Position numbers and translations under genes: made by a program. Below are positions 11,723 to 24,435 of a DNA stretch of 64,000 nucleotides, one piece after another. Below the pieces are notes generated by a model that made no database searches, was not told the DNA's origin, and worked only from the letters and a program-made list of their open reading frames with translations. The DNA lies in assembly GCA_016432545.1 (NCBI GenBank), contig CP066694.1, positions 1,240,001-1,304,000 on the forward strand. The letters run 5' to 3'. The DNA is from an archaeon (GTDB taxonomy: Archaea; Thermoproteota; Nitrososphaeria; Nitrososphaerales; Gagatemarchaeaceae). Position 1 is the first letter of the stretch. Each line of letters opens with the position of its first letter.

Positions 11723-11774
11723 CTGAGCAAGTTCCTCTCCGAGAATAAAAAGTGTGCGAGCGGTCTTGCTATAC

Positions 11775-11883
11775 CGGGCCCGGTGGGATTTGAACCCACG
11801 ACCTCTGCGAGCCTCAAGCTCTCTGCAGCTTAGAAGGTTCGGCTAGATGTTCTGCCGCGCTATCCATACTGTGCTACGGGCCC
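11775..11883 (-). tRNA. tRNA-Arg(UCU) with two non-canonical introns
   Basis: Acceptor strands GGGCCCG (11877-11883) and CGGGCCC (11776-11782) pair, with G73 at 11775 and no encoded CCA. The T arm is GTGGG-TTCAAAT-CCCAC. The gene is 109 nt, 34 more than a mature tRNA. Intron 1 is 14 nt (11838-11851): exon CGGC pairs with intron GCCG, flanked by 3-nt bulges AGA and AAC. Intron 2 is 20 nt (11803-11822): exon CTGC pairs with GCAG, flanked by AGA and AGG, with an internal GAGC/GCTC hairpin. Removing both gives anticodon arm GCAGC-CTTCTAA-GCTGC and variable loop AGGTC. Intron sites fall between positions 30/31 and 45/46 instead of the usual 37/38. The D stem has one A-C mismatch. Confidence 0.9.
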
Positions 11884-11928
11884 AGTAGGCGTCGCCCGCA
11901 GTTTCAAGATAAGCTTTCGCGGTCGAGC

Positions 11929-11992: not shown

Positions 11993-13360
11993 TTGGCCGC
12001 GGCCCACCAGCGGCTCTTCGGGACCAACGGAGTTAGGTTCGTCCCGGGAGTCAGCCATGACCTCGACTTTGTGATCAACCTCTGCGAGGCCATAGGCACT
12101 TACTTCGGCGAGGGCGAAGTCCTCCTCGGAAGAGACGGGCGACTCTCGAGCCCCGCCCTCGTGGAGGCCGCTGCCTCTGGCCTCATGAGCTCCGGTCGCG
12201 ACATAGGCGAGGCAGGCCTGGTGCCGACGCCGGCCCTGCAGTATTCGGTCAAGGCGATGGGATACCGAGGAGGGGTCATGGTCACGGCTTCGCACAACCC
12301 CGCCCAGTACAACGGCGTGAAGGTCGCGGGCTCTGACGGGGTGGAGGTGCCCCGCCTCGACGAGCAGCGGATCGAGAAGATCTTCCATGACCGGTCCCAG
12401 ACCAAGGCTGACTGGAGGACGATCGGGACCGCAAGGAGCGAGCCCTCGGTAGTCAGGACCTATCTCAAAGGGATCACGTCCAAGGTAGACGTCAAGAAGA
12501 TCGCGGAGCGAAAGTTCACAGTAGTGATGGACGCAGGCAACGGCGCACAATCTTCCGCGGCCCCCCAACTGCTTGAGTCGCTGGGCTGCAAGCTGATCAC
12601 GCTCAATTCCATAGTTGACGGGGCCTTCCCCGGGAGAGGTCCCGAGCCCACCCCGGACTCGTTGAGGGACCTCTCCTACGCCGTGAAGTCCGCCGGAGCG
12701 GACCTTGGCGTCGCCTATGACGGCGATGGAGACCGGTCCATCTTCTGCGACGAGGGCGGAAGGGTCCTCTGGGGGGACCAGACGGGCTGCCTCCTCTCCG
12801 ACCACATCATGGAGAGGCACCCAGGCGCGACCGTCGTCACCTCGGTGGGCTCGACCCAAGGAATAGACATCGTCGCGAAGAAGCACAAAGCGAAGGTGAT
12901 CAGGACCCGCGTAGGCGCGGTGGACGTTGCAAGGACGATGCTCGAGAGAGGGGCCATCTTCGGGTTCGAGGAAAACGGAGGCTGCATCTACCTCCCCCAC
13001 ATCGCAGTCAGGGACGGAGGCATGGCCACGGCCCTGATGCTCGAGTGTCTCGCATCACGCGGCCTCGCCTTCTCAAGGGCCGTCTCCTACTCGGTCCCCA
13101 AGTTCCACCAGGCCAAGACCAAGGTCGAGGTGGACCGAAGCAACGTCGACAAGGTCATGAAGGCCGTAGAGCGGAACGCAAAGGGCGAGGTCGACAGGAC
13201 GGACGGCATCAAGCTCTGGCTCGACGATCGCTCATGGGTCCTGGTGAGGCCGAGCGGGACCGAGCCCATAGTCAGGGTCTTTGCGGAGGCCGAGACCCAG
13301 GAGCGCGCTGACCTCCTTCTGAAGCGATACGTCAAGGTAGTCAAGGCTTCCTCAGCCTAA
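11993..13360 (+). CDS. glmM: Phosphohexomutase, GlmM/ManB family
   Basis: 455 aa alpha-D-phosphohexomutase that moves phosphate between C1 and C6 of a hexose or hexosamine. TASHNP near residue 100 contains the phosphoserine, DGDGDR near 243 is the metal-binding loop, GFEENG near 323 is the sugar-binding loop, and RPSGTEPIVRVFAE near 420 binds the substrate phosphate. These are the four domains in the usual order. The archaeal homologues include phosphoglucosamine mutases, so GlmM is the likeliest role, feeding UDP-GlcNAc synthesis; phosphomannomutase remains possible. The start is a TTG; its last 9 nt overlap the convergent thiL. Confidence 0.88.
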   Translation: MAAAHQRLFGTNGVRFVPGVSHDLDFVINLCEAIGTYFGEGEVLLGRDGRLSSPALVEAAASGLMSSGRDIGEAGLVPTPALQYSVKAMGYRGGVMVTASHNPAQYNGVKVAGSDGVEVPRLDEQRIEKIFHDRSQTKADWRTIGTARSEPSVVRTYLKGITSKVDVKKIAERKFTVVMDAGNGAQSSAAPQLLESLGCKLITLNSIVDGAFPGRGPEPTPDSLRDLSYAVKSAGADLGVAYDGDGDRSIFCDEGGRVLWGDQTGCLLSDHIMERHPGATVVTSVGSTQGIDIVAKKHKAKVIRTRVGAVDVARTMLERGAIFGFEENGGCIYLPHIAVRDGGMATALMLECLASRGLAFSRAVSYSVPKFHQAKTKVEVDRSNVDKVMKAVERNAKGEVDRTDGIKLWLDDRSWVLVRPSGTEPIVRVFAEAETQERADLLLKRYVKVVKASSA

Positions 13361-23646: not shown

Positions 23647-24261
23647 TTGGAGTTCGAAGAGGCCGTCAGGAAGAGGAGGATGGTCAGGCACTTTGCAAAG
23701 AGAGAAGTCTCTCTGAGAGTCATCCAAAGAATCCTCGACTTGGCCCAGCACGCCCCCAGCGCGGGGTTCAGCCAAGGAAGTGCGTACGTGTTGGTGCAAG
23801 ATCCAGCCGCCAAGAGGAAGCTGGCTCGCATCCAAGGAGAACAGAACTACACGTCCGGAGGCTTCCACCCGTGGATCTCCGAAGCTCCCGTGGACATAGT
23901 GGCGTGCGTCAGCGAGAAGCTCTATCACGACAGATACCAGGAGCCGGACAAGCTCCAGGACGGCAAGGAGATCGAATGGCCGACCCCCTACTGGTTCTTC
24001 GACATCGGCGCAGGATGCATGATCATCCTCCTTGCCGCCGTCGACTCTGGCCTCTCTGCCGCTTTCTCCGGAGCTGTCTATCCATCCAAGGTGAAGCGCC
24101 TTCTCGGAATCCCGAGCCACTTCCACCCGGTCGGGGTGATCTCGATCGGATACCCGGCCAAGGACAAGAGGTCGCCCTCACTGTTGAGGGGAAGGCGGGA
24201 CAAGACCGAGGTGATTCATTACGAGAAGTGGGCAGTCTCCTCTTCAAAGGCATTGAATTAG
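23647..24261 (+). CDS. Nitroreductase-family flavoprotein
   Basis: About 204 aa FMN-dependent oxidoreductase. LEFEEAVRKRRMVRHF at the N-terminus is the usual phosphate-binding start (RxSxRxF type), QHAPSAGFSQG near residue 45 and GAGCMIILLAAVDSGLSAAF near 150 complete the flavin fold, and IPSHFHPVGVISIGYP near 185 is the C-terminal pattern. It resembles the F420/FMN nitroreductases found widely in archaea; the substrate is unknown. The TTG at 23647 is chosen because it matches the family N-terminus; an open frame upstream to 23572 adds a non-conserved stretch. Confidence 0.85.
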   Translation: MEFEEAVRKRRMVRHFAKREVSLRVIQRILDLAQHAPSAGFSQGSAYVLVQDPAAKRKLARIQGEQNYTSGGFHPWISEAPVDIVACVSEKLYHDRYQEPDKLQDGKEIEWPTPYWFFDIGAGCMIILLAAVDSGLSAAFSGAVYPSKVKRLLGIPSHFHPVGVISIGYPAKDKRSPSLLRGRRDKTEVIHYEKWAVSSSKALN

Positions 24262-24262
24262 A

Positions 24263-24351
24263 AGCCAGCGCCGCGATTTGGACGCGGGACCCCTTGCTTA
24301 CGAGGCAATCGAGCCCGATTGGAGTGCTCTACCAGGCTGAGCTACGCTGGC
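24263..24351 (-). tRNA. tRNA-Thr(CGU) with an intron in the anticodon stem
   Basis: Acceptor strands GCCAGCG (24345-24351) and CGCTGGC (24264-24270) pair, U73 at 24263 is the threonine discriminator, and the T arm is CCGCG-TCCAAAT-CGCGG. The gene is 89 nt, 15 more than mature. The intron (24309-24323) starts TCCAATCGG and ends GCTCGA. Exon GAGC (D-stem 3' strand) pairs with intron GCTC, with 3-nt bulges ACT and GAT cut after their second base, a standard BHB. Removal gives stem CTTGC/GCAAG and loop CTCGTAA, anticodon CGU. The site is between positions 27 and 28. No CCA is encoded. Confidence 0.92.
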
Positions 24352-24435
24352 CTAATCTCGCCCAATCTGGCTGGGCGTTAAAGCGTTATGACCACAAAGG
24401 GTTTTTAGAATTCACGCGGGCGGCTCGAAACAAGT

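Follow-up and report, generated by a model that had tools for sequence, protein, structure and literature searches.

Two short introns in a tRNA-Arg(UCU) gene and variable tRNA intron sites in a group I.1c-like family of Nitrososphaerota

Anatomy of the tRNA-Arg(UCU) gene

The DNA stretch analyzed here (64,000 nt, hereafter the window) harbors on its minus strand a 109-nt pre-tRNA-Arg(UCU) gene (11775..11883) that scores 37.6 bits against Rfam RF00005. It is divergent from a phosphoglucomutase/phosphomannomutase gene (11993..13360, plus strand) that was assigned by Pfam and is conserved as a neighbor by synteny. ARAGORN run in bacterial mode made no call at 11775..11883. We parsed the gene with a solver that scores the cloverleaf left after removal of BHB introns and that is independent of the earlier reading. 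Its best solution (score, 23.95) consists, in the direction of transcription, of exon 1 (positions 1 to 30; 11852..11883, 32 nt), intron 1 at site 30/31 (11838..11851, 14 nt, AACATCTAGCCGAA), exon 2 (positions 31 to 45; 11823..11837, 15 nt, with the anticodon UCU at 11834-11832), intron 2 at site 45/46 (11803..11822, 20 nt, AGAGCTTGAGGCTCGCAGAG), and exon 3 (positions 46 to 73; 11775..11802, 28 nt). A split or permuted tRNA gene was rejected, since the three exons are contiguous and in order.

Both introns are flanked by a full Watson-Crick 4-bp exon-intron helix and two 3-nt bulges. The BHB of intron 1, CGGC-AG^A..GCCG-AA^C, is of the relaxed type without an inner helix, and that of intron 2, CTGC-AG^A..GCAG-AG^G, is accompanied by the intron's own GAGC/GCTC hairpin. 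Removing both yields a 75-nt tRNA with anticodon UCU and a variable loop of 5 nt, the same mature form that the first-pass annotation had proposed. That annotation had also stated that every stem is restored, which is correct for the acceptor, anticodon, and T stems, all perfect, and incorrect for the D stem (GCAC/GCGC), where an A12xC23 mismatch remains; relatives have G12. Upstream, by about 25 to 34 nt, we read a TATA-like box on the minus strand (AAAGCTTATC, 11908..11917), presumably the promoter of the gene, and many orthologues have kept such a box (AAAGCTTATG). A run of T residues downstream on the same strand (11747..11751) may act as terminator.

All five arginine tRNAs (CCG, GCG, UCG, CCU, and UCU) were detected in the genome. 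A second Arg(UCU) gene, which had been named beforehand as a finding that would speak against the two-intron reading, was not found at the DNA level in searches of the 1.50-Mb genome that included a pattern search. For both these reasons, the window gene is probably the only AGA reader of this genome, in which the codon is in use (9 AGA codons within five window ORFs). The low Rfam score and the D-stem mismatch might be taken to indicate a decayed pseudogene with chance insertions, AGA being read by another gene. We consider this hardly credible, given that no such other gene was found in the genome, that the same inserts are conserved at the same sites in orthologues with intact stems, and that the TATA-like box is conserved upstream.

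When the introns at 30/31 and 45/46 were shuffled, both 4-bp helices formed in 7.5e-5 of the trials. However, when the solver was free to choose the sites, 17 of 150 random two-insert controls reached the score of the real gene. The evidence from the window sequence alone is thus suggestive and only moderate, and the claim therefore rests on the comparison of orthologues. A solver requiring perfect 4-bp helices misparsed D-loop introns as well as a four-intron gene described below, and one mismatch at a helix end was then allowed.

Occupied and empty intron sites in orthologues

Orthologous loci were located through the neighboring phosphoglucomutase gene in 27 named MAG contigs and in 42 of 46 family genomes. 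This gave 32 distinct orthologous Arg(UCU) genes (29, plus L047 and L049, plus L079), with one to four introns in related species; in many of them, one or both inserts of the window gene are missing, with the gap falling precisely on the predicted junctions. Four sites were found, 15/16, 30/31, 37/38, and 45/46, each of them occupied in some orthologues and empty in others. Scoring presence or absence at these sites in that order for 31 rows, several of which represent near-identical genomes, we obtained seven patterns: 1001 (n = 14), 1101 (n = 5), 0010 (n = 4), 1111 (n = 3), 0101 (n = 3, including the window gene), 0001 (n = 1), and 1010 (n = 1). Site 30/31 is empty in the 14 orthologues with pattern 1001 and in others, and site 45/46 is empty in L038, L048, L053, L054, and L079, whose variable loop is 5 nt. 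We regard these empty sites as the decisive evidence for the two introns of the window gene (14 nt at 30/31 and 20 nt at 45/46), which had been drawn in the first-pass annotation and form the top parse of the solver.

The empty sites also bear on the nature of the second insert. Because it forms a hairpin of its own, and because a solution with one intron scores 21.3 against 23.95, one could imagine that only intron 1 is genuine and that the 45/46 insert is retained as a long (type II) variable arm in a 95-nt mature tRNA. We judge this extremely improbable: the five orthologues just named do without the insert and have a 5-nt variable loop, and nearly all of those having it preserve the BHB helix with exon bases 40 to 43. 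Indeed, when 19 distinct 45/46 introns are compared, pairing in the BHB helix and in the inner hairpin holds in 96.1% of cells, compared to 26 to 63% when the partner is slid. Covariation is modest, with one pair changed on both sides (C-G, U-A, G-C). Likewise, there is only a slight chance that the junctions are shifted by a single base or a few, or that removal of the 20-nt insert takes two steps; the solver does list two 10-nt excisions, at a score of 21.7, but the single 20-nt excision scores higher and its BHB is conserved.

As for intron 1, C25, which is needed for the 30/31 BHB, is kept in all genes with the 30/31 intron and is replaced by T25 in most genes without it, an association confounded by kinship. 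Gain and loss were judged on a phosphoglucomutase tree in which 10 inner branches are open and one row (L124) is in the wrong frame; because of this partial resolution and the frame error, we give no formal count of events. We propose that 15/16, 30/31, 37/38, and 45/46 represent a fast-changing set of insertion sites across this group I.1c-like family of Nitrososphaerota, with up to four introns per gene.

The tRNA-Arg(CCU) gene (L025/L168, in the region of G000:C1:1388785) has a 15/16 intron, ATCCATCCGGAGCGGAA, that closely resembles the 15/16 intron in the Arg(UCU) gene of relatives. The window Arg(UCU) gene does not have this intron, a distribution that could reflect sharing between paralogues, transfer, or loss.

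Splicing enzymes and proposed processing

As established for archaea, tRNA introns are released by EndA cleavage at both bulges, after which RtcB ligates the exon ends. The first-pass annotation had recommended a search for a heteromeric splicing endonuclease, and one is encoded: the window's genome contains two PF01974 genes, a number also seen in two other genomes of the family, G015 and G041. The alpha subunit of the host gives a match to EndA of Aeropyrum pernix (3p1z_B; E value, 5.8e-42) and keeps the catalytic His (Ala in 3ajv_B) and the catalytic Lys. The first two residues of this query were assumed, as its start codon is unsure; the match to 3p1z_B begins at residue 11. In the alignment to A. 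pernix, the alpha segment GYYGKPLGIPKPKD places a Lys at K44 of the crenarchaea-specific loop (CSL), a residue to which PMC6379350 attributes a broad specificity toward relaxed BHBs. The beta subunit is without the catalytic His. Two different PF01974 subunits, one of them catalytic and with the loop Lys, support the prediction of an (alpha-beta)2 EndA of broad specificity with a CSL. An RtcB ligase gene is present as well.

Taken together, it is very likely that the window harbors a functional single-copy tRNA-Arg(UCU) gene with two short BHB introns that are cut out by EndA, the exons being joined by RtcB, and that belong to the changing set of sites. In the precursor, intron 1 would pair with exon bases 25 to 28 and intron 2 with exon bases 40 to 43, so that the exon strands of the BHBs would include anticodon-stem bases 27-28 and 40-43. 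Because these bases would be tied up in the BHBs, the anticodon stem is expected to form only after excision of both introns, an order we infer from the pairing. Carrying a crenarchaea-type Lys in its loop, the (alpha-beta)2 EndA would cut both BHBs, and RtcB would join the exons into a 75-nt tRNA reading AGA. Expression of the gene would precede these steps and is likewise presumed.

tRNA introns in the host genome and its relatives

The host genome is one 1.50-Mb contig. The neighbors of the window proteins are Nitrososphaerota/Thaumarchaeota MAGs, mostly 61 to 75% identical, and the GC content of the window (58 to 64%) fits or slightly exceeds the 54 to 62% reported for the Gagatemarchaeaceae (group I.1c) (PMC10640624), the presumed family of the host. 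The host is a soil-type archaeon of the Nitrososphaerota (Thaumarchaeota group I.1c-like) and not a member of the Thermoproteales.

The solver parsed 32 tRNAs with 35 introns in this genome, 12 of the tRNAs having at least two. Hand parsing added five tRNAs with about six introns, and tRNA-His is intron free. The inventory, drawn up from searches, is incomplete, as Cys, Asp, Tyr, Ile-CAU, initiator Met, one Thr, and one Ser are unplaced. Some of the genes interrupted in the T arm (Gly GCC, Thr GGU, Thr UGU, and Phe) were parsed by hand, and Ser(CGA) was left without a parse. The genome thus has approximately one intron per tRNA, some exact sites being tentative, a density close to that reported for Thermoproteales (0.84) and higher than the mean of 0.21 across archaea (PMC8450103). 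Counted by eye, and including Leu and Ser tRNAs, which are long even without introns, full-length tRNA matches exceeded 80 nt in 28 of 30 cases in G015, of the same genus, and in 15 of the 41 matches in G054, which belongs to a different family.

Several individual genes were noted in this inventory. Three introns (D loop, 24/25, and 37/38) were parsed in tRNA-Lys(CUU) (L164, G000:C1:658300-658800), tRNA-Val(GAC) in L167 probably has three, and tRNA-Trp (L160, G000:C1:880000-880500) was parsed with two, a D-loop intron of 34 nt and a 37/38 intron of 65 nt. In the set formed by L020, L026, and L165, T-arm introns lie at 53/54 in Gly(GCC) (CTCG-GG^T..CGAG-AA^T) and at 59/60 in Thr(GGU) (TCCG-AA^C..CGGA-AG^T), and Thr(UGU) has introns at 37/38 and 59/60. 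Within the window, ARAGORN called a tRNA-Pro(CGG) at 24261-24352 that is without Rfam support and is probably false; a better candidate, with a 37-nt D-loop intron, lies at C1:1072778.

Three related MAG species, TA_8, TA_13, and TA_14 (L049, L047, and L050; again as L082, L083, and L081) harbor four introns in tRNA-Arg(UCU), of 16 nt at 15/16, 16 nt at 30/31, 15 nt at 37/38, and 18 to 20 nt at 45/46. The gene of 140 to 142 nt is reduced to 75 nt by splicing, and its third exon, CCTTCTA, is 7 nt long and holds the anticodon. Two of the four BHBs are mismatched in the terminal pair of the helix. For L050, the four-intron parse ties for best; for L081, which looks like the same gene, the top parse of the solver differs. 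The published archaeal maximum is three introns per tRNA gene (PMC8450103; PMC4033280; PMC3218864), and a literature search for four introns, covering only a minority of subscription papers, returned nothing relevant.

The first-pass annotation had described multi-intron archaeal tRNAs as known mainly from Thermoproteales. Among the closest known systems are the multi-intron tRNA genes of Pyrobaculum and Thermofilum in that order (Sugahara 2008 and Fujishima 2010, as cited in PMC8450103 and PMC4033280). In both systems, the introns are short, of the BHB type, and placed several to a gene at canonical as well as noncanonical sites; an (alpha-beta)2 EndA and strong variation between species are also shared. 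Unlike Thermoproteales, however, the host belongs to the Nitrososphaerota, and L047, L049, and L050 have four introns against a published maximum of three. In addition, noncanonical thaumarchaeal tRNA introns were already on record, with 107 in the set of the tRNAscan-SE 2.0 paper (PMC8450103) and with those of Cenarchaeum symbiosum (Hallam 2006, as cited in PMC3218864); they resemble the present ones in broad lineage, in their noncanonical BHBs, and in the heteromeric EndA. The window gene is therefore less unusual than first thought and adds another example to what has been published on multi-intron archaeal tRNAs and on thaumarchaeal noncanonical introns. A published account of the intron-rich tRNA set of this family, or of its tRNA-Arg(UCU), was not found in our literature search. 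In algae, nuclear tRNA genes that hold two or three introns also combine several introns per gene with noncanonical sites, for which Cyanidioschyzon merolae is named (PMC4090602); they differ in being eukaryotic nuclear genes with three introns at most.

The orthologues with four introns, together with the abundance of introns across the tRNA set, are of more interest than the window gene itself. It is likely that, apart from Thermoproteales, this group I.1c-like family has filled its tRNAs with introns, about one per tRNA here, up to four-intron genes with a 7-nt anticodon exon. If true, four introns in one archaeal tRNA gene would exceed the published maximum. In genomes of this kind, essential tRNAs escape tRNA finders run in bacterial mode, which calls for caution. 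The hot spot of tRNA intron accumulation would extend outside Thermoproteales, to a lineage of soil and acid habitats with dozens of sequenced species. As each of the four sites in Arg(UCU) is either empty or holds a single intron, this gene would make gain and loss testable species by species, and the link between intron gain or loss and the broad-specificity endonuclease loop would become testable across species.
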